Source: Rhizophagus irregularis (taxonomy: Eukaryota; Glomeromycota; Glomeromycetes; Glomerales; Glomeraceae). Taken from it: a stretch of DNA of 64,000 nt. The notes under the pieces are model-generated. The model searched no databases, had not been told where the DNA came from, and worked only from the letters and a program-made list of their open reading frames with translations. The position numbers and the translations under genes are program-made. Of this stretch, positions 6,001-62,808 are shown piece by piece (position 1 is the stretch's first letter; each line of letters starts with the position of its first letter). The stretch lies in the NCBI RefSeq assembly GCF_026210795.1, contig NC_089439.1, positions 2,914,001 to 2,978,000 on the forward strand, written 5' to 3'.

Positions 6001-6194
6001 ATATTAATACATGAATTATGTGATTGTGGAATTGTAGATTAGTAATACTTATTTGTAATATACATTTATAAATAAAGTTGTGATTTTATTGTGAATATCA
6101 AATAAAATGAATTGTGGCTAAATATTAATAAATAAATGTAAATTGAAATTAGTACAAATTTGCAACATAAATTAAGTAACATTTGGAAAACTAT

Positions 6195-40002: not shown

Positions 40003-40173
40003 ATCTTAAACTACTGAAAAAAAAAAATATGAAATAAAAATTAACTTATATTCACCTAAATATATATAGTAACTTAATTTAATAATTAACACTGGTCAAA
40101 ATCAATGTTATCGGGTACATATCAGATACTGATATGTATGCAATATATGTGATATTATTTAACAATACTACAT

Positions 40174-42082
40174 TTATTTATTTATTTATTTTATGTGAAG
40201 TCGGGAGGGAATACAAAATGGGCATGATTCCGCAGTAATACAACCCAACTAAATCCTACCATCGAATTCCAGAGGAGCCGGAACCCAATCTTAACTTCTT
40301 GAAAAAAAAGACCTGTACTACTACTACGTCCGATAAAAGTCCAGGCGAACATACTGGGTAAAAGAAAAAAAAGTGGAGAGGACAAGTTCTCTTTCTGAGA
40401 AATTTGTGGTACGACACATAAATATATTCTATCCTAAAAATAATATAATTCTGAAATTCGTAGAACTGCTAATAAAAGCGTAGGCTAAACTAGTTTCTGT
40501 AATAAAGTCAAAATTTCTGCTAAAACCGCCTTGTTATCTTTATTATTACCCTTTTTCTTTGAGGAATTCTTTGCCTTCTTCTGAGTATTCAGGTGTTTCT
40601 TCTTCTGGTTATTATTTTTAGAGACTTCTTTCGAGGATGAAGGTGTATCCTTTTTCTTAGGCTGATTATGATCCAAATTCTTATCAGACTTACCTGACAT
40701 TTTTGCATTCGGTGTATTTTTAGCCTTCGGTTTACTTTGTGCTTTCTTCAAGGTAGGAATGGAGTGTCGACACCATTTCAACTCCTTACCATCAGGTACG
40801 AAAAACTGTGGCGTATCTAAGGCCCTTAGTGTGGTCTCCCAATTCTCGAAATAGGCCACAAGTTTCCTCCTTCCTTTACTTGTTTGAATAATTTTAAATG
40901 AGCTAGCACCGCACTTCATTAAAAATTCACATGGTTTACGGTTCATCCACAAGGTAGCCATCATCATATCCTCTGAAATGTTATGAATAACGGCTTGGAA
41001 CTTTTCACGTTGTTTTCTTTTTCGTAAGGTCCAACTTGCAGGGAACCATCTAACGGGTATACCTCCCAGGTCTGTTGTTTAATATTTGTTAAACTGGGGA
41101 AGGCTAAAGGAGGAAAGTGCTATTTTAACTCGAAGAGTCTGGTACTTATGTTGCCGTTTAATAGAACATTTAATAGCGTTCCCCCAAAGTTTTAACTCTG
41201 CTAGTATTTTCTGCAGGTTCCAGGTATACAAAATATCGTAAACTATTATGTCTCAGATTCGCTCAAGCTCCTTTCCGACAGCTTCGTATCCTGTCAGTAT
41301 CTGTATAGCTTCCAGTTTGGATGATTTCTTTCCCTTATGGGAATTTTTGGCTGATGTTTTCACAACAGGTTTTGCCTTTGTTGATTGGTTTGCGACTTGT
41401 TTATCATCTGTAACACGCGCCTTTTGTTTATCTTTCTTCCGGGAATTTTCGGGTATCACAGTTTGATCAATAGGGGGTCATTACTATATCAGGCATTGAT
41501 AGAAGCTTGATAGGTACTGGATCTGGTGGTTTTTGGAATCCTTGGCGTATTAGATCATCTACATTTTGCTCAAGAAACGGTGACGCATCCATTAGGTAAT
41601 CATCAGTATCCTGAGATTCCCTATCTTCATCGTCATCATCATCGCCCGTATCGCCAAAATTGCAATAGAATTGGGTAGAAAAATTATCCCAAGACTTGGA
41701 CGCAGCATATAGCGCTATAGAAAATATTAGCGAAAGGTGGTGGGTTGTATATTCGTAGCTTGAGCTTGAGTAGTGAAGTTCGCGGGGTTGGCTGAGTCGC
41801 CAAACCTTTCTATCAGTATCTGGACTTTATCTTTAGGTACTGAGGGGTTTTTTTCAAATAAGTCCTTGAGGAAACCGTCCTGTACAAAAGAACTTAAGTG
41901 ATATGTAACGGTGTTAAAATAATGTTCGTTAAATTTGGAAACGAAGTCTAAAGCTGCGGTGTTCGACTCTTATCCATAGACATTTTTATATTTATGTAAT
42001 AAAATTTAATAAAGGAAATTATTTTTTTAAAAAAAATTATTACGCAGAAATTTTCATAAAAAATGTATTTGGGAAAGAGTTC
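40174..42082 (-). mobile_element. ORF1-only retroelement copy H1, exact 19-bp TSD
   Basis: Flanked by TTATTTAACAATACTACAT at 40155-40173 and 42083-42101. The minus-strand 5' end is GAACTCTTTCCC; the 3' end is CTTCACATAAAATAAATAAA with an AAAT-type tail. Long exact TSD and A-rich tail indicate insertion by target-primed reverse transcription. The 1.9 kb leaves room only for the ORF1-like gene; no reverse transcriptase is present. Confidence 0.88.
40485..41970 (-). pseudogene. ORF1-like RNA-binding (gag/RRM-type) protein, H1 copy
   Basis: The start region (MSMDKSRTPQ) lies near 41970 and is frameshifted. Recognisable are TTLSLIFSIALYAASKSWDN, an acidic DDDDE stretch, and KKDKQKARVTDDKQVANQS. 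The C-terminal block at 40967-40485 (TLWMNRKPCEFLMKCGASSF, YFENWETTLRALDTPQFFVP) is followed by a Lys-rich basic tail ending LAEILTLLQKLV. The basic tail and RRM-like middle suggest RNA binding as in LINE ORF1 proteins. Several frameshifts. Confidence 0.7.
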
Positions 42083-43042
42083 TTATTTAACAATACTACA
42101 TATATCGGTGCCCAATAAGTATAGTAGAAATGTAGAAAATCGGTGACATATATTGTAAACATTATGTATATATCTTATACATATCAGGTAGTCAAATATC
42201 AGTCACATATCATAGATTTATCAGATACCCGATATATTATAGTAAAATATCATCAGGATCATTGTACTTTCTCTCCCGTTAGGCTTTGCCCATTTTTTCC
42301 TAAGCAGATATGAATGAAAAATATGAGGATTTTTTGCCTTGAGTGATAGTAAAAGGACTTTTGGATGTTATATGAAGTTATTACCGAGGTCTTTAGTTTC
42401 GCCTGAACTCCTTACGGCTTATATTGAGTTAGGACCATTATCATGAGTCTTAATAATAATTTAAGATGGCAGTTCCATACAAACGTTCTCCTGGGCTTTC
42501 TGAAAGGTTGAAAAGTAGTGTGTCTTGGTTCCTATGCCTTTAAAGTCTAACTGGCCAAGTGGTTCGCAGGCCGGACTGTTATTTCTTGGAAGAAGCTCCT
42601 AACTAACGTATTTTTTGTTAGTTAATGTTGTTAACGGGAGAGTTAGTCTTCTAAAATAAGGAGACAGAGTTGAGGTGTATGTTTGGTGATTTTTACTCAA
42701 GTTTTTCTTATTGCACTTCGAGTTTTCCTGAGGTTTGTTTTTATTTTTTGCTTTTTATTTTTCTTGGTCATTTTTTTTGGTGTAACCTTATTTTCTTTGG
42801 GAGTGAGGGATACTGGAAAATTTGATCGTCATGGTAGTTTGGTGTTACAATTTCAAAATTGATGATCACTCAGGTGATAAGGAGAGTGACAGGTTGGGTA
42901 CCGCAATTTTTGTAGTATGCTGATCAAAATGGTCACATGTTGGACTATCATTGGATTGACTTATCTAGGTAGATCTTAAGTCGAAGGATTGTTCGCAATG
43001 AGGTGGGTGTCCTCCGTTTGGGATCATTTGGAATGAGATGGG

Positions 43043-44242
43043 TAAAGCTCCGAACGGGTCGGTTTGGTCCGGATTATAGACGGTTCGGATTAGAGCCGAA
43101 ATCCGTAAGAACTGAACCGAAAAACCGGCGGTTCGGTTCGGTTTAATCCGATTTTTATAAAAATGCGAAAAATCGAATAGCCGGCCATCTAGTGATCGTA
43201 TAAAGTCGAGCCATATATCATTGGATTCGTCTCGACAAGGCGCGTCGAATGGTGGTGAGATCATGTCTCTAGCATCGATAGACCACACGTTAACCCACGC
43301 TAAATGATTTATAAATAATTAGAATTAGCAAGCTATCTATCGGTGCTAGAGACATGATCTTAGCACCATTCGACGCGTCTCAGTGAGACGAATCCAATGA
43401 ATATAAATTCGTTCGTGTACGACCACTGGATGGCGAATAATATCAAGTTTCGCATTTTTTTAAAATTTTCGAAAGCGTTAAAAATTAAAAATTCCGATAC
43501 ATGAATTTATTCGTCGTCCAATGGTCGTACAAATATGAATTAGGACTCATTGGATTCGTCTCGATGAGACGAGTCGAATGGTGGTAAGATCACGTCTCTA
43601 GCATCGATAGATAGCTTGCTAATGCCAATTTTTTATAAATTATTTAGCGTGAATTAACTTACGATCTATTAATGCTAGAGACATGATCTCACCACCATTC
43701 GACTCGTCTCATCGAGACGAATCCAATGAGTCCTAATTCATATTTGTACGACCATTGGACGACGAATAAATTCATGTATCGGAATTTTTAATTTTTAACG
43801 CTCGAAAATTTTAAAAAATGCGAAACTTGATATTATTCGCCATCCAGTGGTCGTACACGAACGAATTTATATTCATTGGATTCGTCCCACTGAGACGCGT
43901 CGAATGGTGCTAAGATCATGTCTCTAGCACCGATAGATAGCTTGCTAATTCCAATTATTTATAAATCATTTAGCGTGGGTTAACGTGTGGTCTATCGATG
44001 CTAGAGACATGATCTTACCACCGTTCGACGCGTCTCGTCGAGAGGAATCCAATGATATATAGCTCGACTTTGTACGATCACTAGATGGCTGGCTATTCGA
44101 TTTTTCGCATTTTTATAAAAAATCGGATTAAACCGAACTGAACCGCCGGTTTTTCGGTTCTAATACCTGAACCGAACCGAACCGAATTTTGAGCCGGTTT
44201 CGGATCGGTTCCCCGGTTTGGCCTGAACCATTTGGAGCTTTA
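43043..44242. mobile_element. 1.2-kb foldback element (hAT-like), ~590-bp inverted arms
   Basis: Ends TAAAGCTCCGAACGGGTCGG and CATTTGGAGCTTTA, flanked by GAGATGGG (43035-43042) and GAGGTGGG (44243-44250), an 8-bp TSD with one change. Each arm begins with GGTTCGG-rich sequence (GCGGTTCGGTTCGGTTTAAT), as in many hAT MITEs. The arms then contain CATCTAGTGATCG boxes and CACCATTCGACTCGTCTC units, related to the 144-bp units at 29.3 kb. The two arms pair almost completely. Non-coding. Confidence 0.8.
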
Positions 44243-44406
44243 GAGGTGGGTGTTCCTTCGGGAATTGCATAACACTAAAAAGCGGTATGTAAAAAATATG
44301 TCATGTATACAACCCTTTGTATGTCACGTATGGTGTTGTATACACGTATACGTATAGTTATTTTTTTTACCATACGTACATACATATTTATTATATTATA
44401 AATATT

Positions 44407-46342
44407 TATTTATTTATTTATTTATTTTATGTGAAGCAGGGAGAGAAATACAGTATACAAAGGCATGACTAAATATAGTACAATCTAAACGAATTTACCA
44501 TTGACTAACAGAGGAGCTGAAAACCAACCCTAACTTCCTGAAAAAAAAGACCTGAACCACTACCACGTCCGATAAAAGTCCAGGCAGACACACTGGGAAA
44601 AAATAAAAAAAGTGGAGAGGACAAGTCCTCTTTTCAAGAAATTGTGGCACTACACATAAATATATTCTATCCTAAAAATAATACAATTCTGAAATTTGTA
44701 AAACCGCTAATAAAAGCGTAGGCTAAACTAGTTTCTATAATAAAGTTAAAATTTCTGCTAAAACCGCCTTGTTGTCTTTATTATTACGTACCCTTTTTCT
44801 TCGAGAAATTCTTTGCCTTCTTCTGAATATTTAGGTGTTTCTTCTCCTGGTTATTATTTTAGAGACTGCTTTCAAGGACGAAGGTTTATTCTTCTTCTTA
44901 GGCTGATTACGGTTCAAATTCTTATCAGACTTACCTGACTTTTTCGTATTCAGTGTATTTTTAGCCTTCGGTTTACTTTGTGCTTTCTTCAAGGTAGGAA
45001 TGGAGTGTCGACACCATTTCAACTCCTTACCATCAGGTACGAAAAACTGTGGCGTATCTAAGGCCCTTAGTGTAGTCTCCCAATTCTCAAAATAGGCCAC
45101 AAGTTTCCTCCTTCCTTTGCTTGTTTGAATTATTTTAAACGAGCTAGCATCGCACTTTATTAAAAATTCACATGGTTTACGATCCATCCACAAGGTAGCC
45201 ATCGTCATATCTTCTGGAATGTCATGAATGACAGCTTGGAACTTTTCACGTTGTTTTCTTTTTCGTAAAGTCCAACTCGCAGGGAACCATCTAACGGGTA
45301 TACCTCCCAGGTCTGTCGTCCAATATTTGTTAAATTGGGGAAGGGCAAATGAGGATAGTGCTATCTTGACTCGAAGAGTCTGATACTTGTGTTGACATTT
45401 AACGGAACACTTGATAGTATTACCTCAAAATTTTAACTCTGCTATAATTTTCTGCAGGTCTCAGGTATACGGGATATCGTAAACTATTATGTCTTGGATT
45501 CGCTTAAGCTCCTCTCTGACAGCTTCGTATCCTCTCAGTATCTATGTAGCTTCCAGTTCAGATGATTTCTTTTCCTTATGGAAATTTTTGGCCGATGTTT
45601 TCACATCAGGTTTTGCCTTCGTTGATTGGTTCGTGATTTGTTTATCAGCTGTAACATGTTCCTTTTGTTTATCTTTCTTCTAGGAGTTTTTGGGTATTAC
45701 AGTTTGATCAACAGGGTCATTACTAAATCAGGCATTGATGGAAGCTTGATTGGTACTAAATTTGGTGGTTTTTGTAATCTTTGGCGTATAAGATCATCTC
45801 CATCAAGCGTTAGTAAAGGTGACTCATCCATCAGATAATCATCAATATTCTGAGATTCTGCATCATCGTCATCATCATCATCACCCATATCGCCAAAATT
45901 GCAAAAGAATTGGGTAGAAAAATTATCCCAAGATCTGGACGCAGCATATAGCGCTATAGAAAATATTAGCGAAAGGGTAGTGGGTTGTATATTCATAGTT
46001 TGAGCTTGTGAAGTGAAGTTCGCAGGGTTGGCTGACTTGCCAAACTTCTGTATCAGTAACTGGCCTTTATCATTAGGTACTGAGGGGTTTTTTTCAAATA
46101 AGTCCTTGAGGAAACCGTCCTGTACAAAAGAACTTAAGTGGTATGTTAAAGTTTGAAAATAAATTTCGTTAAACTTGGAAACGAAGTCTAAAGCTTCTTC
46201 GTTAGGTGTTCAGCTCTTATTCATAGACATTTTTATATTTATGTAATAAAATTTAATAAAGGGGATTATTATTTTTTTTAAAAAATTATTACGCAGAAAT
46301 TTTCGTAAAAAATGTATTCGGGAAAGAGTTATTTGGTGCATC
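44407..46342 (-). mobile_element. ORF1-only retroelement copy H2, exact 16-bp TSD
   Basis: TTATATTATAAATATT at 44391-44406 and 46343-46358. The tail (minus-strand 3' end) is AAATAAATAAATAAAT. Inserted in the subterminal region of MULE 2. Confidence 0.88.
44770..46230 (-). pseudogene. ORF1-like protein, H2 copy
   Basis: Same block order as the H1 copy: TTLSLIFSIALYAASRSWDN, an Asp-rich run DDDDDDAESQNIDD, then TLWMDRKPCEFLIKCDASSF and YFENWETTLRALDTPQFFVP. A frameshift (about 44860) separates the last block from the Lys-rich tail, and the stop/frameshift pattern differs from H1, so the copies decayed independently. Confidence 0.7.
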
Positions 46343-46607
46343 TTATATTATAAATATTAATAAAAATGTACGTATGTATGTATATATAGTGAAAATCATG
46401 TGACCATAAATTGTTACAATACAAATGTAACGTAAATTTTTTTTTAAAAAAATTTTTTTATGCCTCGGCAGTTAAAACAGTTTATTTTTACAATTATGTG
46501 CTAAAGTGCATGGCGACCATTTAGTCGTCATATTTTAAAAATAAATTATACATTTTTTAAACTTTATTGAAATTTTATAAAAACATTAATTAAACTTTTT
46601 GTTTTTA

Positions 46608-49600
46608 CTAAACTTTCTGTTTTTGTTGAAGATTAGCTAATTCCAATGCCTCAACTTCAGCTTCTAGTATTCTAACTTCGATTTCAGCAGTTCGTGCTTT
46701 AATAGTACGCTCTCTTAACCCATTTTTCTTTCTTCAATTTATAATTCAAGTATTTCATTATCATTTTCAGAAGGTTCTTTTCTACTTTTTTTTGAAGATT
46801 TCCTATTAGTAGAGGGAGAAAGTTTTCTTTTTAATGAGGATTTATTGGATAACTTGTCATTGGTTAAATCAATAACAGATTCTTTATTTTTTTGATTATG
46901 AAATCCTATATATATTAAAAAAAGTTAGTTTTTATATAAATTAATAACTGATAATTATTTTTGTGTTTATTATTACCTTTACGTGTTATTGATCCACATG
47001 TTCGTTTGATTTCACTTTTATCTATATGTGTATAAGAAACACCTGCTTTATTGTGAATTTCAATCGTTTTATAACACCTTTCATCATATCTTTTTCCCCT
47101 TTACAAAATAAAAATGTTTTAATAATTATGTATAATAAAAATTATCAAAGAAAATATAAAATAATTCACCTTAAAATGGCTGATAGTAATTTTAATTGCT
47201 TTCCCTCTCTATTTACCATGAAATGAGCTGCTTCTGCATTATTTGTATTTCCTCCACTTTTACGCCAAATCTCATAATCAATATTTGAAATAAATTGATT
47301 TAAAGAGGACAATACATATGGTTGTTTATAATATTTTAACTAATCTACGAAAAAAAAATATATTTATTTAAAATAATATATTACTTAATTTATAGTATTA
47401 AATAATTTAATATATACCTTCTATTCCATCATCATTTGTATCTTTTATTTGTTGTAACAGAATATTTACTTCATCTTTACTAGATGTATTAGGAATTTGT
47501 CTTATTAGATTTTTTGTATTCTTTTCAAATGCTTTATGATGTAAATTACTTGAAAAAAATAAATAAATAAATTAATTAAATTAAATAAATTAATGCAAAC
47601 ATTTAAAGGTTTATAAACTAATAAATTAATAAATACCGTTCAAAGTGCACAAGACAAGATTTAAAAATAAAGGTTAAGTGAGTCTCTTAATCTCTTTTAT
47701 GATCCAGATTATGTAAAGCTAATCCTAAACCTTTGGCTTGTGCATTATCTAAATCTGCCAAAATACATCCAATACCTTCTTTGTGAATATGTTGAAACTT
47801 AATGTGTTGTCCACTTATTTCATAAATTACTTGAAACAAAGATGAAAATAACCTATGATATCCTTCAGCTGTAAAAACATTTGTGAAAACTCTACAAAAT
47901 GACAATACTTTAAAATAAAAATTATATATATTTAATATATATTTTCTAATATATTTATTAAATTGAATTTAAAAAAAAAAAAATTCACTTACTTAAATGA
48001 TGATTAGAATCATATGTATTTATTTCAAATTTATTAATCTCTCCTTTTACTCGTTTGAAACTAACATCAATTTGAAACCATTCAAGTGCAATCAACCTTA
48101 TTTGTAAAAAGATCTAAAAAATAGTAATTATTAATTATATAATTTACAGATGTAAATTAAATTTAAAAACTTACCAATTTTATGAACATAATTAGATAAA
48201 TTAGAATTTGCTGTTAATACATTATGATATATACCCATTACTCCTTGACCAAATGGATGCAAATTTTTATAGGCTTTTCCTATCAAATAACGTAATTTAT
48301 CTATATTATTCAATGATACATGTACTTCTGCTAGGATATCTTTGTTAAAATATGCTTTGATTAAATTTCCTATTAATTAATATAGTATATTAAAATATTA
48401 ATAATACAACAATAATAAAGTATTCACTAAAATTCAATATTATACCTGATATAATAGATCTTGAAGTGGTAGTATCATCCTGATAAATTGCCTGTTCAAT
48501 TAAAGATTGTAAATTGTTTTAATTCCAGCAGGTGTTCTTTCTGGAGGAGGTGAGGATGGTTGTGAACACCAATACAAATAAGAGCAACAAATGGACATTT
48601 AGCAATATTGTGAGGAATAATTTTGATAAATTGTACTAAGCAAGATTTTTCAATTATATCACCGCGGACAGCAGTTCCATTGTTTAAATGAGGAATATCT
48701 TAAATTCAAAAATTAGATAATTATATATATGGCACTATATATCAAAATACAATATAAGACTAAATAATTAGATACATTACCACATTTTTTGCATCTACAA
48801 TTTCTAGGAATTATTATACTACAATTTGCCATTTCTCACGCCTAAAATAATTAATTTAGTTTTTAGTTTTAAAAAAAAGAAAATGCAAAAGATTTAAATT
48901 AAGAAGTAGTACTTACAGATGCAGTACCAGAAAATAGATTTTGGAGAAGTGAAATATCTATTTCTTCTGGTTTAATTTTAATAAATCGATGCCATTGATC
49001 ACCCTGTTTGAATTTATCACATCCAATAAAATATGTAACTATTTGAGTTTAATAATTAGTCATTCTTCCAATACGAGCTCGTCCATCACAAGGTATATTC
49101 TCTTTTTTAAAAGGGCAAGAAGATTCTTTTACTGCCAAAAATAAACTAAATAAATTTATAAATCATTAGTTCAAAATAATAAACAAAATCAAAGGAATAA
49201 TTGTTAATATCTTACGTGTATGTTTTAGCTTCTTTGGAATTAATGTCTTGCTGTTGTGTATACTTTTTAAAAGTTTCTGAATCAAAATCAACGCTACAAT
49301 GCTCTTGGTTGACAAATTCTTGATCAGTAAACTGACAGAATTTAATGCCCTGGCACATTCTTTTGTCTTTTTTAATTGATATTCCACCAAAAAAGGGACA
49401 CTCCTTAATATTTGAAGAACCACCTGAACCATTTGTTGAATATTGAATCTTATCATAATAATAGAATTTTAATTAAATATATATATTTGCTATGAAATCA
49501 AATTCAATATATACTTACATCTGAAAAGGCATCCATGTGATTCTTCCAACCAGTAACATTGTATATTGTTGCAACTCCCTCCAGTGAGGTTTCTGGGTAT

Positions 49601-49862
49601 TCTACAGGAACAGTTGTATAGATTATTTTTGGAACTTGTAGTTTGGAAGTAAAGAAAGCAACTGTTCCATTATTTTCATCATCTTCACTTTTATCTTCAT
49701 TAATATCATCTCTATCCTATTTGATTTTATTTATTAGAAAGAATAAAATATTATCTTATTTCACACATTATTTACCTTATCTTTATTAACTATTTTTGCA
49801 ACATCTGCAAAATCTTCTGCATTATATTCTTCAATATCTGAAAGCTCAATAATAGATGACAT
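46608..49862 (-). pseudogene. MULE-like transposase of MULE 2, decayed, multi-exon
   Basis: Starts MSSIIELSDIEEYNAEDF (49862), intron, then VAFFTSKLQVPKIIYTTVP and NVTGWKNHMDAFSD, intron, then KECPFFGGISIKKDKRMCQG. Downstream: VKESSCPFKKENIPCDGRAR, a zinc-binding HNH region (CPFVALICIGVHNHPHPPP), NLHPFGQGVMGIYHNVLTAN, LEWFQIDVSFKRVKGEINKF (probable first catalytic Asp) and IGCILADLDNAQAKGLGLAL (probable second Asp). It ends in a coiled-coil-like ARTAEIEVRILEAEVEALEL before TAG at 46608. Introns follow GT...AG with T-rich acceptors. Stops (after MTNY, after KTIYNL) and small frameshifts show decay. The MULE call fits the 9-bp TSD. Confidence 0.75.
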
Positions 49863-50030
49863 TGTAAATTTGTAATTTTGAAAAATGTAAAATTGGAATA
49901 AATTGATTTTTTTTAATAAAAAAAGTATTTTGACACGTTACATTATTTAGTACGTGTTTTTGATTTGTGATCAAAAATAAGTTACTATTCAACTACTTAC
50001 CATATTTATTTAAAATCAAGTTGGATAATT

Positions 50031-51798
50031 TTTTTTTTTATTTTTTAAGATAAAGACCAGTATTGGGGTTGCACAATACATAGGAACTGGAACCTACAAA
50101 GTAAGACCATTATTCCAAATTAATGATCAATCCAACCTCTCGAATGAATCGAAGGGGTTGCCTAGCCTCGCTCCACAAGGAACGCAGGCTTGGCCGCAAC
50201 TCAAGCTACGAACCAAATAGAACAAAAAAAAAGACATCCAAACACTAATTTAGCGAGAGTTCCCAGTCAAAAAAGAAAAATTAATTAATTCTGCCTATTC
50301 TGAATAAAATCTATTATTCTATATAACTACTAAATCTTTAAGAAAAAAAGTAAGAATCGCCAGCATTTAACCAACAGAAATATAGCTATACTAATTTTTG
50401 CAGTAAGGATAAAATTTCTGCTAAAACCACCGTGTTATCCTTATTACCTCCTTTATTCCTGGACTTCTTATTGGACTTCAACTTCTGGGATTTGGGATCC
50501 TTCAACGGGTCTTTAGTAGAGTTGGCTTGTTTCTTAGCACTAGTCGAGGATTTCTGGTCCTTCTTTTTAAGGTTAACATTACCAGACTGTTGTGCAGTTT
50601 TTCTGGGCTTCTTGTCAGGAACATTCTTCGCCTTTTGCTTGGTTGGTGCTTTCTTCAAGGTAAATAAGGAGTGTCAACACCATTTCAACTCCGGAGAATT
50701 CTCCCAGAAAGCTTGCGGAGTTCCTAAGGCTTTGAGCGTAGCCTCCCAATTCTCGAAATATCCTACGAGCTTCCTCTTACCTTTACTTGTTTGTATAATT
50801 TTAAACGCGCTAGCACCGCACATCGCTAAAAATGATTGTGGTTTTCAGTCTGCCCACAAGGTAGCCATCGTCATGTCAACCGGAATATCGTGAATGACAG
50901 CTTGAAACTTTTCACATTGTTTCTTTCTCGTAAAGTCCAACTTGCGGGAAACCATCTCACCGGTATACCTCCCAGGTCAGTCGTCCAGAACTTGGTAAAT
51001 TGGGGAAGGGTAAATGAGTTTAAAACTATTTTGACTCTAAGAGTCTGATATTTGTGTTGCCGTTTTAATGACAACTTAATAGTTTTGCCCCATAACGTTA
51101 ATTCTCCTAAGATTTTATCAACATCCCAGGTATACGGAATGTCATATACAATAATGTCTCTGACTTGCTCTTGCTCGTCATCGCTTTCTTTGTATCCTGT
51201 CAGTATATGTGTGACCTCAGGTGCGGTAGTTTTTGCCCCCAAAAATAGGGTATTTTGTTTGTCTGGGGTTTGTGCCTCAGGATTTGCTGTAAATGATTGG
51301 TGTATGATTTGTTTATCAGCTGTAACACGCGCCTTTTGTTTATCTTTCTTCCGGGAAGTTTCAGGTGTCACAGTATGATCAACAGGAGTCATTTCCACAT
51401 CTGGCAGTATTGGAGGTGTAACATGTACTGGTTTTGGTGTAGTTTTCGGTGTTGATATGTATGTAGATCCAAATTCGTCTTCAGCAGAGGGACATTTCGA
51501 CTCTGAGTCACCCATGTCACCAAATCTAGTATAGGCGCGGGTAGCAAAATTATCCCATGACCTGGACGAAGCGTAAAGGGCTATAGAAAATAATAGTGAA
51601 AGGGTGGTTGGTTGTATATTCATCGCCGCCGCCTGTTGAGCGAAGTTGTTCAGGTTGGCAGACTCGCCAAACATATCTACTAAAAGCTGTGCTTTATCCA
51701 CAGGTTGCTATGGGTTTTTATCAAACAAAGTTTTGAGGAAACCGTTCTCAACAAACTGTCCAAGCTGAAATGTTGTATGAGATAGGAACGTTTCCCCT
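50031..51798 (-). mobile_element. ORF1-only retroelement copy H3 (diverged subfamily), exact 16-bp TSD
   Basis: ATCAAGTTGGATAATT at 50015-50030 and 51799-51814. The 3' end (minus) is a plain poly-A, not the AAAT tail of the other copies, and the 3' untranslated region differs, so this is a second subfamily with the same protein plan. Confidence 0.88.
50386..51715 (-). pseudogene. ORF1-like protein, H3 copy (longest open piece, 276 aa)
   Basis: The best preserved frame is 51701-50871: MDKAQLLVDMFGESANLNNF, TTLSLLFSIALYASSRSWDN, a Thr/Pro-rich linker, KKDKQKARVTADKQ. Then comes an RRM-like fold region (RDIIVYDIPYTWDVDKILGE, LKRQHKYQTLRVKIVLNSF, GGIPVRWFPASWTLRER). A frameshift follows and the C-terminal basic tail lies at 50658-50386. 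A stop precedes VDKAQLL, so the N-terminal ~50 residues are also out of frame. Confidence 0.75.
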
Positions 51799-53512
51799 AT
51801 CAAGTTGGATAATTGATTTATATAGATATAAGGATGTAAAAATTATTAATTATTTTAGTACATTGTGGTCAAATTTTGATTTAAGAATAAAATCAAATTG
51901 CTACTTCTTACCATTTTAGATACTAACAATTGTGATTTTATTTAAAATAATCTTTAATAAATAAATTCCAATATTTACAGTGATTTATGGAAAAAGATTC
52001 CAATATTATAACAATATAATTGTCGTGATTAAAGTAATAGATCAGTAATCTAAAAAATTACATATTTAATAAATTAACTTAATTTGGTTAATAAATAATT
52101 AATAGACCAAGTAATAAATTTTCTCACTCCTATTCAATTTGAATACTGTAAGATTGAAAATTCAGCTAGTTATATAGTTTGATGTTGTACAATAAATCAG
52201 ATATATCAAATTATCAATTGATTTAACTTGATTTAGCATATTAAAAAAAATACGAATATCATTTTTTTTTAAAACAAAAAATATTGTCTTGTCCCAATTA
52301 CAATTAGTTTATGATTACATCAACAAAAATTAATTATATTTGTTCTATAACCAGTTTTTATTTTCTCATTATTAATCGTTGAATGCAATGTTTTAAGTCA
52401 ATTAATTAAAAAACTAATAAAAAAAGATGGTCATATAAGTAGGTTAAATAATAAAAAGGTCATATTTAGTTTTCACGTACATGATAATGAAAGAGATGCT
52501 GAAAGATTAATTAAAAAAATTAATGAATAAGCAAAAAAAATGAAAAATTTTATGTAAACAAAAAATCTTCATAAAGTTACAAGTTCAAAGGTCTACCTCA
52601 AAAACATTTCAATTATTTGATCCTATTTAGATGACGCCAAGTTAAAGTTAACATTGCAAATTCTTTTTGTTCAGTTTCTAATTCTTAGCATTGCTTAATA
52701 GCCTTTGTACCTTTTAATTCTTTTAAGATTGTTAATGTTAAGATTGTTACATGTTTAGTTATAATCTGTTTTTGCTTAATTTATTTTTTTATTTTTGACG
52801 TGCTTTTCTTTCTTTAAAACATTAAATTGACAATTTGGGTTTGTTTTTAAAGTACTTTGTTGCAACAAAGCACGTCAAAAAGTTTTTTTTTAAAATTTTT
52901 TTTTTTTTTTTTGCTATTTGTATAGCATAATACTGTATAACTGTATAGGTAACAATCTATACACAATAATTTTATTTGTCGATTGTCATGTATGGAATAA
53001 AATTGTTACATGTATGATGCACATCACCATACGCTACATACATAGGTGTCTATACGTAATATCTTTTCTATATAATCCTAAAAAGTTTCCCATCAGCTGG
53101 ACTGCACGACACTAAAAAGTTCCTGGAGGCCTTTGTGAAAATAGGTTTGTTATCCATAGTATGTAGTTAAATAGGAGAAATTGAATTTTATGCGTTTCTG
53201 ATAGTGCTAATGGTAGCTCGGAGGTTCTTTACCGATTCTAGGAGTGTAGATGGGTTACGTATAGCATAGTCAACTTTACCCATTTTGAAATAGATTTGGG
53301 GTAGTAGCTGTAGTTATTTATATAGAGAGGGTGGGGTTTATAATCTTAGCTTTTCTTTATTTGTAATTCTGGAAGATTATTTGTTTTTGTTTTTCTATTA
53401 GTTCTGCACTTGTTGTGGTTCTTTTTAGAATACTCTGTATTCTCTAAAGTGACTTATGGCGATTAATTAATAAAATTCAAGTTTCACATGCTTTGTCACT
53501 AGTAAAATATCA

Positions 53513-53745
53513 GCATAGTCGACTTTACCCATTTTGAAATAAATTTGGGGGAGTAGCCGTAGTTATTTATATAGAGAGGGTGGAGTTTATAATCTTAGCT
53601 TTTCTTTTATTTGTAATTTTGGAAGATTATTTGTTCTTTGTTTTCTATTAGTTCTGCACTTGTTGCGGTACTTTTTAGAATACTCTGTGTTCTCTAAAGT
53701 CACTTCGGCATTAATTAATAAAATTCAAGCTCAAGCTATGTTTGT
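53513..53745 (+). mobile_element. LINE family B, 5'-truncated copy
   Basis: Starts GCATAGTCGACTTTACCC, parallel to about 53262-53490 of the previous copy, and ends CAAGCTATGTTTGT. It lies between target copies ending 53512 and starting 53746 (CTATAGTAAAATATC, 53746-53760). Confidence 0.8.
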
Positions 53746-53760
53746 CTATAGTAAAATATC

Positions 53761-55290
53761 GTTCTTCTTTTGTCTACTCTAATAGCCAGCTTTATTATAA
53801 AACTACGAATTTTGAACTTTGGGCTATTATTGAACGAACCATCCTCTCCAAGAATTTGACTGTTCTTCCAATCAAAGTCAAAGCCCATTCTGGCAACTAT
53901 TTGAATGATTTTGCCAATTTCTTGGCCAATATTGCTTATACCTCATCATTTAGTATTTTAATCTCTGGCTTGGATCTTGCCTCTGCTCATGATTTTGTCT
54001 TAACCTATGATAATGATGTCATCTGCGAGTCTAATCTGAGACATCTTTTTAAACAATATTATCAAACGCAGTTGATGTGTGAGTTATTACATTTAACGCG
54101 ATTTCACTTCACTTCTTTATTATCATCTAATATAAATTACATTGTTGATTGGGATCTTACGTGGTTTACTTTGAAATTTGAATCTTCTCATGATGCTTCT
54201 TTTACCTTTGAACATGCTTCACGGCACCATACCTTCAAATTCTTACTTTTTTTGGATGAATTACCCACGTTGGAAAAGCTTAAAAGAGCACGTCCAGACT
54301 TATACATGGACGAATTAACTTACCGTTCCTGTATTGACTGCATGGAAGACTTAATGCACCTCTTTATGTGTAGATGACGTTGTTTGCCTATGCAACAAAT
54401 TCTCCAAGAAGCCAGAAAACTGGCTGATATTGATCCTACTCCATTTATTACCAAACTCGCCTTTTTTTCATGTTGGTCCTTTTCCTCTACAAATTGGTCC
54501 TCCTATGCCTCGATTTATCTATTCCTCGAAATTCTGCGATGAAGGTTGTCACTGCTATCCATAACAATTTTGTTCAAAAATTCAGAAGACGAATTTGGAA
54601 TCCGCGTTCTTATGACATCTATAGATGGAAAATTTGCGATGAATATTACTTTTAAGTTGAAAACTACTCTTAGGCCATCTAATTTGCCATTGACAACATA
54701 CACACCTTACTCATCTTTACCACCCCGACCCTATCTTTCCAAGCGTCGCCCCAAGATTTTTCACCTCTACGTGACCTGCATAAAATGTCACCCCACGTCA
54801 CACCTCACCATTTTCATTTTTTCATAAGTATTCTGGGGACTTTCATGTGAGGGTGGAATTTCACTTAGAAATCTTGGGGTGATGCTGGGTAAATCTCCAA
54901 CCCTACATGATTCATGTGACTCCAGAACCGATTGGTTAAAGAATTCGATAAAATATGGTTTGCCTTGGTTTAATCACTTTTAGGGTTTTATGGGTCGTCT
55001 AATGGTGCTACTTAATAACAGCTTTTGCAGGATGTTATAGTTGGCGCGCTATTCGTTATTTTGTTAGCATAGTTGCTTCTACTTTGATTGGAATATATCA
55101 AGGGGGAAGATCTGGGGAAATTTATTGTAATGCGATTATTCTTTTTAGATTAATTTTTACTTTATTTTTTCTTAGGAGACTATATAGCTTTGTTTTTAGT
55201 TAGTTTTATTTTTTTATTTTTCTTTTTATTTTTGTAAATTGTAAAGTTTGAATAAATTTAATAAAGATAAGGCTACTATGCCACATTTGC
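53761..55290 (+). mobile_element. LINE family A, 5'-truncated copy (RNase H to 3' end)
   Basis: Flanked by CTATAGTAAAATATC at 53746-53760 and 55291-55305. It begins inside the RNase H domain and runs through the 3' untranslated region to AAGGCTACTATGCCACATTTG. The 3' end is shared with 3061-3282 and 59290-59471. Confidence 0.85.
53763..54377 (+). pseudogene. LINE ORF2 C-terminus: RNase H end plus zinc-finger-like tail
   Basis: Reads LYYKTTNFELWAIIERTILS, LPIKVKAHSGNYLNDFANFL (RNase H His and last Asp region), then a helical tail and a terminal CIDCMEDLMHLFMC Cys/His motif typical of LINE ORF2 ends, before TGA at 54375. After a frame break the tail continues (QQILQEARKLADIDPTPFIT, NFVQKFRRRIWNPRSYD, to about 54655). 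It lacks reverse transcriptase and the first RNase H Asp. Confidence 0.8.
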
Positions 55291-55305
55291 CTATAGTAAA
55301 ATATC

Positions 55306-55381
55306 ACTACAGATCAGCTCTGTGTTCTCTAAAGTCACTTCGGCATTAATTAATAAAATTCGAGCAAAAGTTTATATTTGT
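55306..55381 (+). mobile_element. LINE family B, tiny 3' remnant
   Basis: 76 bp (CTCTAAAGTCACTTCGGCAT, TTAATTAATAAAATTCGAGC) between two exact target copies, 55291-55305 and 55382-55396. Confidence 0.75.
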
Positions 55382-56314
55382 CTATAGTAAAATATCGTGG
55401 TTTTCTCTTTTTCTTTTAAAAAGGATTATATCGCTTGCACTATTGCTCTCTTGAATTCTACTCCTTTACGCCTGCTTCAAACCCAACTTTTGAAGCTCCC
55501 AAATTTATCTTTGCTTGATGGACGCATTCCTTTATTTGATTACATGATGCCCAAAGCTTTTAAAGCTTATTATCCTATCCTACGTAAATGACAGCTGTTT
55601 TATTTATCTCAGCTCGTAACTCCTCAGGTCACCCATTTAATTTCTTGGAAGGCTTATTATAGCAATCTAGTTGGACAATGCAGCCCTGACCACACTCCCT
55701 TCTGGTACAAGGACATCCAACGACAAACTACTATTAGTTTTGATTCTAATAATCGTTTAGTCGATGGATATATCATTCCTTTACCTGTGAACAACCCCAC
55801 ATACTTTGACCTTGAATCCTGCCTTTCTTCTCCTCCTACTACTATGAACTGGATTGTCACGTTGGATGAATTTGGTTCTCCCATTTTTGGTAAACAACTT
55901 TTGGTCCAACCTGTTCGTGGCATCTGCTCCATTGTACATTGGATTTCTCCTGATTGTGAATCTTCACCTGGTGATATCATTAAACTTCTTCCCTGCCCTG
56001 GTTGCGCTGCCCATACTCCTTTACTTCCTTCTAAAAGACGGAATGCTGATTTGACCCTTTGCACACTTACAACATTCGCTCATCCCGCCTACCATTAATG
56101 AGCGGATTAGATGTGATACAACCAAAGTGACTACCCCTTTTACTTGGACTGATATAGAAGATGGTGTTCATCTCCATTATAATAGATGGGATATTGCTCC
56201 TAATTTCTCCCCTATAGATGCCATTGAGGCTTCTGTTATCCCTACCACTGTTGAATTCTCGGCTGCCGCTGTTTTTGCTAACTCTCCTTTAATTCCTTCC
56301 ACGGATTCACGTTA

Positions 56315-58238
56315 CTTATTTATTTATTTTATGTGAAGTCGGGAGGGGATACAAAATGGGCATGATTCCGCAGTAATACAACCCAACTAAATCCTACCAT
56401 CAAATTCCAGAGGAGCCGGAACCCAACCCTAACTTCTTGAAAAAAAAAGACCTGCACTACTACCACGTCTGATAAAAGTCCAGGTGAAAACACTGGGTAA
56501 AAGAAAATAAAAGTGGAGAGGACAAGTCCTCTTTCCAAGAAATTTGTGGTATGACACATAAATATATTCTATCCTAAAAATAATACAATTCTGAAATTCG
56601 TAGAACCGCTAATAAAAGCGTAGGCTAAACTAGTTTCTGTAATAAAGTCAAAATTTCTGCTAAAACCGCCTTGTTATCTTTATTATTACCCTTTTTCTTT
56701 GAGGAATTCTTTGCCTTCTTCTGAGTATTCGGGTGTTTCTTCTCCTGGTTATTATTTTTAGAGACTTCTTTCGAGGATGAAGGTGTATCCTTCTTCTTAG
56801 GCTGATTACGATCCAAATTCTTATCAGACTTACCTGACATTTTCGCATTCAGTGTATTTTTAGCCTTCGGTTTACTTTCGAAGGCTTCTTTTCAGCCGTA
56901 ATTAGTTGTCAACACCATTTCAACTCCTTACCATCAGGTACGAAAAACTGTGGCGTATCTAACGGCCCTTAGTGTGGTCACACCCAATTCTCGAAATAGG
57001 CAACAAGTTTCCTCCTTCCTTTACTTGTTTGAATAATTTTAAATGAAATTAGCTACCGCACTTCATTAAAAATTCACATGGTTTACGGTCCATCCACAAG
57101 GTAGCCATCGTCATATCCTCCAGAATGTCATGAATAACGGCTTGGAACTTTTCACGTTGTTTTCTTTCTCATAAGGTCCAACTTGCAGGGAACCATCTAA
57201 TGGGTATACCTCCCAGGTCTGTCATTTAATATTTGTTAAACTGGGGAAGGTTAAAGGAGGAAAGTGCTATTTTGACTCGAAGAGTCTGGTACTTATGTTG
57301 GAACATTTAATAGCGTTCCCCCAAAGTTTTAACTCTGCTATAATTTTCTGCAGGTCCCAGGTATACGGGATATCGTAAACTATTATGCCTCACGGATTTG
57401 CTCGAAGCTATCTCCCCTGACAGCTTCGTATCCTATCAGGTATCTGTGTAGCCACCAGTTCGGATGATTTCTTTCCTTTATGGGAATTTTTGGCTGATGT
57501 TTTCACATCAGGTTTTGCCTTTGTTGATTGGTTCGCGACTTGTTTATCATCTGTAACACACGCCTTTTGTTTATCTTTCTTCCAGGAATTTTCGGGTATC
57601 ACAGTTTGATCAACAGGGGTCATTACTATATCAGATTATCAGGCATTGATGGAAGCTTGATAGGTACTGGATCTGGTGGTTTTTGGAATCCTTGGCGTAT
57701 TAGATCATCAACATTTTGCTCAAGAAACGGTGACGCATCCATTAGGTAATCATCAGTATCCTGAGATTCCCTATCTTCGTCGTCATTATCATCGCCCGTA
57801 TCGCCAAAATTGCAATAGAATTGGGTAGAAAAATTATCCCAAGACTTGGACGCAGCATATAGCACTATAGAAAATATTAGCGAAAGGTGGTGGGTTGTAT
57901 ATTCATAGCTTGAGCTTGAGTAGTGAAGTTCGCGGGGTTGGCTGAGTCGCCAAACCTTTCTATCAGTATCTGGACTTTATCTTTAGGTACTGAGGGGTTT
58001 TTTTCAAATAAGTCCTTGAGGAAACCGTCCGCAATACAAAAGAAGCTTAAGTGATATGTAACGGTGTTAAAATAATGTTCGTTAAATTTGGAAACGAAGT
58101 CTAAAGCTGCGGTGTTCGACTCTTATCCATAGACATTTTTATATTTATGTAATAAAATTTAATAAAGGAAATTATTTTTTTAAAAAAAATTATTACGCAG
58201 AAATTTTCGTAAAAAATGTATTCGGGAAAGAGTTCTTC
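56315..58238 (-). mobile_element. ORF1-only retroelement copy H4, 17-bp TSD
   Basis: TCCACGGATTCACGTTA (56298-56314) and TCCACGAATTCATGTTA (58239-58255), differing by one G/A and one C/T. The AAAT tail and GAACTCTTTCCC-type 5' end are as in H1. Inserted within the RNase H domain of the LINE. Confidence 0.85.
56625..58130 (-). pseudogene. ORF1-like protein, H4 copy
   Basis: Same blocks as H1: KSWDNFSTQFYCNFGDTG, an acidic run, KKDKQKACVTDDKQVANQS, and the Lys-rich tail ending LAEILTLLQKLV at 56625. Multiple small indels (for example about 56880, 56965 and 57300) break the frame, including the usually preserved RRM-like and KPCEFLMKCGASSF blocks. Confidence 0.7.
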
Positions 58239-59486
58239 TCCACGAATTCATGTTATATCTTTTTCACCAATGGATCCCTTATTAGCTTAGGAACTCCTGA
58301 CATTTCTATGGGCTGTTCTTGGATGCAAATTGTACCAGATGCTGGCTTTCCCAACTCTATTGCTACTTATGCACATGGCATTATTTGGGATAATCCCTCT
58401 TCTTCATAAGCTGAAGCTGCTGCTATCTACGCAGTTTTAACTATTTCTCCTCGCGACTCAGAAGTTACTGTTTATACTGACTCACAAACTGTTATTGACA
58501 GCCTCTGAGGTTGTTCTTCTTCTATTTACTCTAATAGTTGGCTTTATTATAAAACTACGAACTTCGAACTCTGGGTTATTATTGAGCGAACCATTCTTTC
58601 CAAGAATTTGACTGTTCTCCCAGTCAAAGTCAAATCCCATTCTGGCAATTATTTGAATGATTTTGCAAGCATTGTCGCTTACCTATGCAACAAATCCTTC
58701 AATCTTATCAAAATCATTTGATTTTTAAAATTCAAGAAGCTGGTAAATTAGCTGATATTGATCCTACCCTGTTCATTGCTAAACTTACTTCCCTTTCATG
58801 CTGGTCCTTCTCCTCTACAAATTGGTCCTCTTATACCCTTATTTGTGGCTGTCTGCCCAAGCTCTTTGCCGACTTATTAGTCAATTTATCTGTCCCAAGA
58901 AATTCTGCGATGAAGGTTATCGCCGCTATTCACAATAATTTTGTTCAAAAATTCAGAAGACGAATTTGGAATTTGCGTTACTATGACAAAGGTAGATGGA
59001 AAAATGTACTCATAAGTTAAAAACTACTCCTTGGCCATCAAATTTGCTAAAGTCTACATACTTGCCTTACCACCTCCGACCTTACACGATTCACGTGACT
59101 CCAGAACCAATTGGTTGAAGAACTCAATGAAATATGATTTGCCTTAGTTTAATCACTTTTTGGGTTTTATGGGTCGTCTAATGGTGCTACTGAATAACAG
59201 CTTTTGCAGGATGGAGTGTCAATTTTTATAGTGGGCGCGCTATTCGTTATTTTGTTAGCATAGTTGCTTCTACTTTAGTTGGAATATATCAAGGGGAAAT
59301 TTAGTGTAATGCAATTTTTCTTTTTTAGATTAATTTTTTACTTTATTTTTTCTTAGGAGACTATATAGCTTTGTTTTTGATTAGTTTTATTTTTTATTTT
59401 TCTTTTATTTTTGTAAAATTGTAAAGTTTGAATAAATTTAATAAAGATAAAGGCTACTATGCCACGTTTGCCTATAGTAAAATATC

Positions 59487-60393
59487 AGATAGATATTATA
59501 CATTTATCAGATAGTGCCAATATATATGTCCGAAGTATATCTAATAGGCTTAATAGGCTAATAGCTATAATTTACTGATATTTAATGCAATAATATGAAT
59601 GCTAATAAATTTATAATTTAAATTCAATTATAATATTAATTTATTTATTTAATTGTTAATTAATTACAAATAAATAAAATTACAAAAAATCATATAAAAA
59701 TTATTCTAGCTATATAAAAAATTAGAATTATGTGTATCAAATAATGGGTTCACTTATTTGCTGCATATTTTTATCTGTTTAATATTTAAAAGAAAGAAAT
59801 AGAAATAGTAAAGTATTTTAGTAATAAAGATATTAGTATGAATAATGTTAAACGAAATTGTTAAAGAAAAGGAATGGTATTAGAAAATGTTAGTAAAAAA
59901 AAAGAAAAATAAAATGGATAGAAAATGTTAGTATGTTTAGTAGTATTAGTAGAAACAAATGTTAGATAAAGAGTGTTAAAAAAAATATTAATAATATAAA
60001 TAAAAATTAGTAAAAAATATGCCTTTATATTTATTCCAGTTTTATTCCACCTCTTTTTTTGAAGTTTGCTATTTAAAGAGAAAATAGATCTGTTTATTAT
60101 ATTTTTTTTAATAAAATAAAAAAATAAATATTTAAGTTACGTTACTCTCATATTCTTCTGAAAATACATTATATCTTCTTTTTCCTTGGATTTACTATAT
60201 ATAAACCAAATTAATATTTGATTAAATTTTTTTAAAAAGAATTACATCCTTGATGCACAGTATCAAAAAATGTCCACCCTTGATGTAGAAGATACTTAGG
60301 AACTACCTCTTCTTGCCTATCAGGTACAAGTACCCTACAACTTCATCCCTAAGTAGTCAAAAATCTCAAGTGGTTCCAGATCACAGCGTACTA
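59487..60393. other. AT-rich stretch, no gene seen
   Basis: Begins with ATATC-rich foldback remnants (to about 59570), then A/T-rich DNA. A short GC-richer piece (about 60245-60390) has no recognised content. Confidence 0.5.
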
Positions 60394-60928: not shown

Positions 60929-62808
60929 AAAAAAAAACTCTTTCCCGAATACATTTTTTACGAAAATTTCTGCGTAATAATTTTTTTTAAAAAATAATCC
61001 CCTTTATTAAATTTTATTACATAAATATAAAAATGTCTATGGATAAGAGTCGAACACCGCAAACAGACTTCGTTTCCAAGATTAACGAAATTTATTTTCA
61101 AACTTTTACACACCACTTAAGTTCTTTTGTACAGGACGGTTTTCTCAAGGACTTATTTGAAAAAAACCCCTCAGTACCTAAGAATAAAGCCCAGTTACTG
61201 ATACAGAAGTTTGGCGAAATAGCCAACCCTGCGAATTTTACTTCACAAGCCCAAGCTACGAATATACAACCCACCACCCTTTCGCTAATATTTTCTATAG
61301 CGCTATATGCTGCATCCAGGTCTTGGGATAATTTTTCAGCCCAATTCTATTGCAATTTTGGCAATACGGGTGATGATAAATATGACGACGATGATGGATC
61401 TCAGAATACTGATGATTATGTAATGGATGAGTCATATCCGCTTGAGTCTGATGAAGATGCTTTTTTATGCCAAGGATTTCAAAAACCACCAAATCCAGTA
61501 CCTATCAAGCTTCCATCAATGCCCGATATAGTAATGCCCCTGTTGATCAAACTGTAATACCCAAAAATTCCCGGAAGAAAGATAAACAATAGGCGCGTGT
61601 TACAGATGATAAACAAGTCGCGAACCAATCAACAAAGGCAAAACCTGATGTGAAAACATCAGCCAAAAATTCTCATAGAGGAAAGAAATCATCTGAACCA
61701 GAGGCTACACAGATACTGACAGGACACGAGGCTGTTCTGAGAGGGAGCAAAGAGCGAATCCGAGACATAATAGCACGATATCCCGTATACTCCGACATGC
61801 GAGAAAATTTTAGCAGAGCTTAAAACTTTGTAACGCTATTAAATGTTCCGTTAAATAGCAACATAAGATCAGACTCTTCGAGTCAAAATAGCACTTTCCT
61901 CTTTTGCCCTTCCCCAGTTTAACAAATATTGGACGACAGACCTGGGAGGTATACCCTTCCTGCAAGTTGGACTTTACGAGAAAGAAAACAACGTGAAAAA
62001 TTCCAAGCCGTTATTCATGACATTCTGGAGGATATGACGATGGCTACCTTGTGGATGGACCGTAAACCATGTGAATTTTTAATGAAGTGCGGTGCTAGCT
62101 CATTTAAAATAATTCAAACAAGTAAAGGAAGAAGGAAACTTGTGGCCTATTTCGAGAATTGGGAGACCACACTAAGGGCCTTAGATACGCCACAGTTTTT
62201 CGTACCTGATAGTAAGGAGTTGAAATGGTGTCGACATTCCATTCCTACGCTGAAGAAAGCACAAAGAAACCGAAGGCTAAAAATACACCGAATACGAAAA
62301 AGTCAGGTAAGTCTGACAAGAATTTGGAAAGTAATCAGCCTAAGAAGAAGGATAAACCTTCATCCTCGAAAGAGGTCCTTAAAAATAATAACTAGGAGAA
62401 GAAACGCCCGATTACTCAGAAGAAGGCAAAGAATTCCTTGAAGAAAAAGGGTCATAATAAAGATAACAAGGCGGTTTTAGCAGAAATTTTGACTTTATTA
62501 CAGAAGCTAGTTTAGCCTACGCTTTTATTCACGGTTTTACAAATTTCAAAATTGTATTATTTTTAGGATAGAATTTGTTTATGTGTTGCACCACAATTTC
62601 TTGGAAAGAGGACTTGTCCTATCCACTTTTTTTCTGCTCCTTTTTTTTACCCAGTGTGTCTGCCTGGATTTCTATCAGACGTGGTAATAGTGCAGGTCTT
62701 TTTTTTTTCAGGAAGTTCAGTCGGTTTCTGTCTCACTCTCGGTTGTCGATGGTAGAGAACTTTTTTGGGTCGTATTACTTAGTAATCTATCCCTATAAAA
62801 TAAAATAA
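60929..62808 (+). mobile_element. ORF1-only retroelement copy H5, 15-bp TSD
   Basis: AGAGAAAAAATAACT (60914-60928) and AGAGAAAAAATAATT (62809-62823). The only plus-strand copy. 5' AACTCTTTCCCGAATAC, 3' CCCTATAAAATAAAATAA. Confidence 0.85.
61033..62515 (+). pseudogene. ORF1-like protein, H5 copy
   Basis: The N-terminus is intact here: MSMDKSRTPQTDFVSKINEI, SSFVQDGFLKDLFEKNPSVP, TTLSLIFSIALYAASRSWDN, then an acidic region to about 61530. A frameshift near 61537 and a stop at about 61590 follow. The RRM-like region is damaged near 61740-61830. From 61960 LRERKQREKFQAVIHDILED, TLWMDRKPCEFLMKCGASSF and ALDTPQFFVP can be read, then another frameshift, then the Lys-rich tail ending at TAG 62513. 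With the other copies this defines a protein of roughly 490 residues and nothing else in the element. Confidence 0.75.

Follow-up and report, generated by a model that had tools for sequence, protein, structure and literature searches.

Tx1L of Xenopus, a long interspersed nuclear element (LINE) of the apurinic/apyrimidinic endonuclease (APE) type, inserts at one site of the DNA transposon Tx1D with duplication of its target, and short interspersed nuclear elements (SINEs) and other non-autonomous elements have a 3′ tail in common with a LINE. Here we analyse a stack of LINE-type inserts of two families, termed A and B, in the arbuscular mycorrhizal glomeromycete fungus Rhizophagus irregularis; it lies within a stretch of 64 kb (C11:2914001-2978000, hereafter the window), and the searched assembly comprises 146.7 Mb in 32 contigs. 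Retrotransposons without long terminal repeats (non-LTR elements) that are target-specific, including those of the R1 and Tx1 clades, are listed with rRNA, tRNA, spliced-leader, snRNA, microsatellite and telomeric targets as well as transposons (PMC4640811, PMC8869645), and in these accounts target-specific LINEs, including ones inserting in transposons, are already a known kind. The curated repeat library of R. irregularis holds L1-Tx1, L1-R1, R2-Hero, CR1-Zenon, RTE-BovB and I families (PMC11075540). A word search of the main text of that paper returned no 'MITE' (miniature inverted-repeat transposable element), 'target site', 'centromere' or 'nested', and a review describes A/B compartments in R. 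irregularis, its three passages on Rhizophagus making no mention of centromeres. In a literature search made mostly at the level of titles, with supplements outside its scope, we recognised no description of the MITE-targeted stacks analysed here.

The nearest stacks that we found are the arrays of Zepp (Coccomyxa/Chlorella) and of Zepp-like elements (Chlamydomonas), described as chromosomally clustered tandem arrays of mostly LINE 3′ ends formed by nested insertion (PMC3446292, PMC8226300). The R. irregularis loci resemble what is outlined for Zepp in nested insertion into existing copies and in arrays of 3′ ends: of the 30 junctions read per family, 14 in B and five in A lead across one target copy into a further A or B of like orientation. 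They differ in the site that is reused: for Zepp, existing Zepp copies are given as the target, whereas here it is a duplicated piece of another repeat and two families use it; nor do they form the single centromeric cluster per chromosome given for the Zepp-like elements, as several chromosomes (C1, C2 and C29, for example) carry more than one group of MITE-target LINE loci. Like target-specific non-LTR elements, A and B insert into multicopy sequences; unlike the listed ones, their targets, in a glomeromycete, are a minisatellite and the outer end of the inverted repeat of a MITE, and A shows a relaxed specificity. B recalls Tx1L in its APE type, its site inside a DNA element and its target duplication, a likeness of features; unlike Tx1L, the B machinery seems to act on three mutually unrelated repeats, stacks upon itself and has a non-autonomous partner. 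A resembles SINE-type partners in being non-coding, with a related 3′ tail and shared targets, and departs from them in its length of ~1.25 kb and in matching no Rfam family (none reached its gathering score within 42200-59600).

We propose that the stack records five separate retrotranspositions into one repeat-borne target by a target-specific LINE, B, and a non-autonomous companion, A, each insertion leaving an extra landing site; we consider this highly probable. What can be read directly from the DNA is that targets are duplicated, that some sites are empty, that the families have targets in common and related 3′ tails, that stacks occur at several loci and that full-length B copies carry target pieces at their 5′ ends.

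The stack in the window

Six copies of a 14-bp site, TATAGTAAAATATC, separate five LINE-type 3′ ends, all in plus sense and in the order A, A, B, A, B (Table 1). An earlier note on this DNA had described the same pattern under exchanged family letters, with six copies of a 15-bp target. The six copies are confirmed; the target copy itself is 14 bp long, because the leading C of the 15-mer form CTATAGTAAAATATC is the final base of the inserts, native sites having T. In a pattern search of the window, CTATAGTAAAATATC matches exactly at 53746, 55291, 55382 and 59472; the match at 42237 has one mismatch and that at 53497 two. When the six copies are aligned, 12 bases, TAGTAAAATATC, are common to all, and the copy at 53498 deviates at its first two target bases. 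Because uninterrupted copies lie in the same dispersed repeat elsewhere, the site is a target-site duplication and not part of an element.

The five inserts, belonging to two families, have five different 5′ ends. The earlier note had called the intervals mostly 5′-truncated LINEs; this holds for intervals 2 to 5, truncated at differing points, but not for interval 1, an A of full length that later insertions totalling ~10 kb have split into pieces. Compared with 29 B and 29 A copies, the window's own loci (L009, L039) being excluded, private divergence reaches 9.0% in interval 1, 0.9% in interval 2 and 9.7% (6/62) in interval 4, and 2.4% and 4.6% in intervals 3 and 5, where it refers to the conserved 3′ region only. 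The last ~60 bases alone differ at 12/58, 0/58 and 6/62 positions in intervals 1, 2 and 4, respectively. The bodies of intervals 3 and 5 have best full-length matches of 80% and 86% and best partial matches of 85% and 93% (best 40 of 225 and of 281 candidates), and interval 1 is unusual for an A copy: none of the best 40 of 126 candidates exceeds 91%.

Families A, B and C

The reference copy of B (within C1:242280-250560, L109) spans 8184 bp and has two open reading frames (ORFs): ORF1 contains an RRM, along with a zinc-knuckle motif read by eye only, and ORF2 an APE-type endonuclease, a reverse transcriptase and RNase H. The reverse transcriptase matches RVT_1 of Pfam (1.5e-21) and PDB chains of R2 and L1 ORF2p (5e-17 to 1.5e-14), and in B relatives at ~50% identity (P0081, P0084, P0117) Exo_endo_phos scores above the Pfam cut-off. 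The B protein has 505 homologues, those named among the 120 listed coming almost all from Rhizophagus, with the best matches in R. irregularis DAOM 181602 (= DAOM 197198) and R. clarus. Reverse transcriptase, endonuclease, variable 5′ truncation and target duplications together identify B, by its sequence features, as an APE-type non-LTR retrotransposon.

The reference copy of A (in L065) measures 1252 bp and its longest frame 110 aa, and A and B matches in the window do not overlap outside their own intervals. Judged by its frames, A is a non-coding element of ~1.25 kb, not a LINE with genes of its own; the earlier note had counted it among the LINEs. Alignments of the last 20-45 bases (A-B, B-C and A-C, one copy per family) were matched by 0-2 of 2000 shuffles. 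Lacking coding capacity, and having both its 3′ tail and its targets in common with an autonomous LINE, A has the features expected of a non-autonomous LINE partner. C is a third, LINE-like family with a related 3′ tail, seen upstream of the MITE target in L078 and L105.

Preferred targets lie in dispersed repeats

Candidates for 3′ junctions were ranked by their similarity to the window copies; the best 40 of 266 for B and the best 40 of 116 for A were scored, and 30 junctions per family were read. Of the B junctions, 27 abut the MITE end TRGTTTTTGACYAGT or a near form (partial in L033), two the window site and one another sequence (L027). Among the A junctions, 15 are at the MITE end (decayed in L044, with the left copy intact), six at a minisatellite of the type TYGAYAAGGAYTGATGA, two at TATAGTAAAATATC and seven at other sequences. 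A left target copy was found at 24 of the 30 A loci; five showed none and one was unparsed, and in two of these six it was found later. Duplications other than those of the main targets stand on both sides of the insert in L040, L048, L050, L053 (one mismatch), L066 and L067. B is thus target-specific, in that most sampled copies lie at one defined sequence, the MITE end.

The 15-mer had been put forward as the preferred site, with a count of A/B 3′ ends abutting it as the check. In the sample, the site is abutted by two of the 30 B and two of the 30 A junctions, those of the window included; of the 12 exact 15-mers that the genome contains, 10 are placed at an A/B junction. TATAGTAAAATATC is accordingly a minor target beside the MITE end and the minisatellite, not the main target of A and B. 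Four of the 12 exact copies fall within the window, where 0.005 would be expected from an even spread; of the eight outside, six are at A/B junctions (L001, L002, L004, L005, L006, L007; not L003 and L143), L005 having a B 5′ end on the right of the 15-mer and, on the left, only a ~10-base remnant resembling an A end. Near forms of the 15-mer have little proof value as such, because they are common by chance: at up to three mismatches the window has 16 matches against a shuffle mean of 9.3, 16 being reached in 4 of 100 shuffles, and at up to one mismatch the genome has 115 against 76 for the reversed control.

Taken together with GATATAT, its native left flank, the MITE end has 193 genome matches at up to two mismatches against one for the reversed pattern, and among the 100 places listed the matches often form inverted pairs ~271 bp apart. 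Nine copies that were fetched (L110-L118) are ~300-bp palindromic elements with the ends CACTGGTCAAAAACC...GGTTTTTGACCAGTG or near forms, neighboured in most of the nine by TA or TA-like bases (by eye); both ends are uninterrupted in eight, and the right end of L117 holds a B. Short length, terminal inverted repeats and a TA-like target mark the main target element as a MITE. It is rich in CGATAT words, and LINEs can occupy both of its ends, pointing apart (e.g. C1:81.7-90.3 kb). The minisatellite target has 262 genome matches against none for the control, spaced by ~52 bp in many of the arrays listed; this dispersed minisatellite, with the unit TTTTYGAYAAGGAYTGATGA, serves as a target of the A family.

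The window target sits in a further dispersed repeat, whose right part aligns over more than 80 bases at 14 places. A LINE is present at four of them (the window, C6:2409833, C8:2303955 and C1:3415779); nine were fetched and are uninterrupted, and the last (C9:3197 kb) seems so, judging by coordinates. The site with its left flank, GATATATTATAGTAAAATATC, has 11 exact matches in the genome, one being the left copy of the window. The other 10 and one GGTATAT form were fetched (L119-L129), and all 11 are uninterrupted. The left flank ACCCGATATAT is common to MITE and window targets, and the duplicated stretch begins directly after it.

Stacks and clusters elsewhere in the genome

In the stack counts given above, two loci were dropped, L023, where the next match is weak and 56 bases away, and L066, where a B follows after 45 bases with no bare target copy between, and three were added by hand, L014 (by eye) and the window's L009 and L039. 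A second sample, of 41 MITE-target copies in 40 stretches out of 98 exact CTRGTTTTTGACYAGT matches, mainly represents new loci: 39 of the 41 copies are preceded by a B 3′ end and two by family C, and 21 run on into another A or B. At C25:219-237 kb, four consecutive target copies on one strand each follow a B 3′ end, and at C8:2294-2304 kb both B and A stand at the window-type target. The 98 exact copies merge into 62 loci, 31 of which have a neighbour within 150 kb, compared with a random mean of 7.3 and a maximum of 20 in 2000 trials (the sizes of five contigs being interpolated). A Poisson estimate, indicative only as its 9 insertions and 14 copies were counted by hand, makes five insertions on one of the 14 window-type repeats unlikely at even rates (P 0.0075).

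Target pieces at the 5′ ends of B

The fetched loci contain 27 different B 5′ junctions at MITE-type targets. In 12 of them the target copy is separated from the first bases of B by an extra piece of the MITE end, at least 7 bases long; no such piece, or only AGT-like repeats, occurs in the remaining 15. Because the pieces of L030, L072, L084, L130, L134 and L135 differ in sequence from the adjoining target copy, these six are probably remnants of the donor's upstream target, carried on a transcript begun before the element; that of L135 extends back into the MITE flank. For the pieces at the other six junctions, an additional copy of the local target is an equally good explanation.

Alternative explanations and the order of insertion

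Five of the six site copies directly follow a LINE 3′ end, as they would if the site were part of the LINEs themselves. Other sequences, however, follow 56 of the 60 sampled A/B 3′ ends, the same sequence stands to the left of the first element with its native flank, and uninterrupted copies exist in the same repeat without any LINE; such empty sites refute this idea, whose chances we put next to nil. The 14-bp direct repeats could also have recombined, one or two original inserts being multiplied by replication slippage or unequal crossing-over. This is left very little room by inserts that all differ in their 5′ ends, that belong to two families whose bodies are unrelated and whose pairwise identities differ widely. 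Simple tandem duplication of inserts was rejected, the earlier note having already argued from the truncation points against unequal crossing-over. A collapse or mis-joining of repeats during assembly deserves mention in a repeat-rich region, but stacks obeying the same rule occur on several chromosomes and at different target types, and the outer flanks of the stack in the window align, left and right, with a single contiguous repeat that is uninterrupted elsewhere; an artefact is hence most improbable. Some arrays might be a single event, the read-through RNA of a whole stack being copied en bloc into a new target. B-target-A pairs do recur (L019, L031, L034, L042, L056, L059), and the 5′ target pieces suggest that transcripts can begin upstream of the element. 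All internal target copies of the window are nevertheless of the local type, where an imported array would bring that of its donor, and no truncation point in the window equals a start listed for other loci (starts being bounded by the ends of the fetched loci), so that we regard en bloc copying as improbable.

If the enzyme required the native left flank CCCGATATAT, only the leftmost copy would be used and stacks would grow leftward. This is consistent with ACCCGATATAT|T being common to MITE and window targets, with L031/L065, where the right-hand copy of A keeps the native T though B now stands on its left, as fits a later B, and with the two-base change in copy 2, which fits a late arrival of interval 1 on the left. 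Against it, the insert with the lowest divergence in the window, interval 2, lies inside the stack between the strongly diverged intervals 1 and 4, the C in L034/L058 fits A inserting to the right of B, and no CCCGATATAT flank is present at the minisatellite and other A targets; we hold a flank requirement to be unlikely. The position of interval 2 speaks for the use of internal target copies. With divergence not monotonic and junction marks mixed (by the C/T mark, B came after A in L031/L065 and A after B in L034/L058), strict growth on the left only or on the right only was rejected, and the claim that each LINE used the target copy duplicated by its predecessor cannot be shown. The length of the duplication gave no order either, as the left copies in L130-L133 end the target at AGT just as inner copies do.

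Several observations weigh against five separate, target-directed insertions by B and its partner. Two bases set target copy 2 apart from copy 3, yet the young insert between them, interval 2, would be expected to duplicate its target faithfully, a difference for which we have no full explanation; either copy 2 was altered later or interval 1 came late on the left. The C/T mark is a less safe indicator of order because of L061, where C stands before the target in spite of a T in the native site. The endonuclease of the reference B matches Exo_endo_phos_2 at 1.7e-4, under the curated Pfam cut-off (21.9 vs 27.4 bits), and its region has no sequence match in PDB. The junctions read are a sample, some of them out of one same stack, and with 7 of 30 A copies at unrelated sites the target specificity of A is a preference. 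The window site with flank is barely more frequent at up to three mismatches than its control (177 vs 147), evidential weight lying only in exact window-site copies and long flanks. Finally, that A depends on, and is moved by, B- or C-type enzymes is an inference.

Other features of the window

The insertion at 43044-44242, within the full-length A, contains a palindrome (43114-44160, 93.8%) composed of smaller inverted repeats. A 1.9-kb repeat recurs at 40153-42084, 44389-46333, 56312-58237 and 60932-62787, with a more distant copy at 50385-51755; its frames encode ~100-280 aa, and the two tested in Pfam (40485-41078 and 45697-46209, minus strand) had no match. The later insertion in interval 5 apparently carries a duplicated target of its own. 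A 3.7-kb AT-rich stretch inside interval 1 (46340-50040) resembles, by eye, another mobile element.

Table 1. Coordinates of the target copies, inserts and further features in the window.
Feature	Position	Strand	Basis
MITE copy; right end TAGTTTTTGACTAG (3045-3058) = target of truncated B	2766-3058		MITE comparison
Truncated B within MITE end; second target copy 3284-3298	3098-3283	+	alignment to B
Native left flank, ends ...CAGATACCCGATATAT	42140-42237	+	same flank before uninterrupted target copies elsewhere (L119-L128)
Target copy 1, TATAGTAAAATATC, native flank to left	42238-42251	+	pattern search, alignment
Interval 1: full-length A, A positions 2-1247, in pieces 42257-43043, 44243-44282, 53078-53496	42252-53497	+	alignment to A
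Insertion within interval 1, with ~1.05-kb near-perfect palindrome	43044-44242		self-comparison, alignment
More foreign sequence within interval 1, with 1.9-kb repeat 44389-46333	44283-53077		self-comparison, alignment
Target copy 2, ACTAGTAAAATATC, first two bases differ	53498-53511	+	pattern search, alignment
Interval 2: 5′-truncated A, A 1017-1249, private divergence 0.9%	53512-53746	+	alignment to A
Target copy 3	53747-53760	+	pattern search, alignment
Interval 3: 5′-truncated B, B 6738-8184	53761-55291	+	alignment to B
Target copy 4	55292-55305	+	pattern search, alignment
Interval 4: 5′-truncated A, 77 bases, A 1182-1236 aligned, end by eye	55306-55382	+	alignment to A
Target copy 5	55383-55396	+	pattern search, alignment
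Interval 5: 5′-truncated B, B 5557-8184 without B 6890-7349	55397-59472	+	alignment to B
Later ~1.9-kb insertion in interval 5; B 6471-6487 aligned on both sides	56326-58247	-	alignment to B
Target copy 6, native flank to right	59473-59486	+	pattern search, repeat comparison
Native right flank, continuing the dispersed repeat that holds the target	59487-59620	+	repeat comparison

A possible mechanism and its significance

The enzyme, its contact bases and the reliance of A on B are reconstructed here from general knowledge of target-primed reverse transcription. Under the proposed series of retrotranspositions, an endonuclease nick at a preferred site would prime reverse transcription starting at the 3′ tail of the element. 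Synthesis would often end early, giving many 5′-truncated copies, and the stretch between two nicks, mostly ~14-17 bp by eye, would become duplicated. The preferred sites lie inside dispersed repeats, mainly the inverted-repeat end of the MITE, and also the ~52-bp minisatellite unit and the TATAGTAAAATATC repeat. With n inserts at a site there would be n+1 target copies, any of which may take the next insertion, and repetition would yield stacks of one orientation with one target copy between elements. The enzyme would then recognise the target copy itself, even between two LINEs, and the 5′ target piece, derived from the donor transcript, may pair with the new target and aid 5′ joining. The earlier note had offered shared endonuclease specificity or regeneration of a preferred site as alternatives; both seem to hold together.

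A further-reaching possibility, which we put forward tentatively and think less probable than not, is a self-propagating system of landing pads: B transcripts would start in the MITE end and carry a target piece that pairs with and joins a new target copy, insertions would add copies, A would ride along, and MITEs would become growing LINE clusters in a few chromosome regions. For LINE clusters in general, the series of insertions proposed here would offer a sequence-level route in which the target, besides the element, is copied and reused. Targets situated in a MITE and a minisatellite would mean that one mobile element prepares the ground for another, and since many full-length copies keep an apparent piece of the donor target, transcription start and 5′ joining may be open to study in genome sequence alone.

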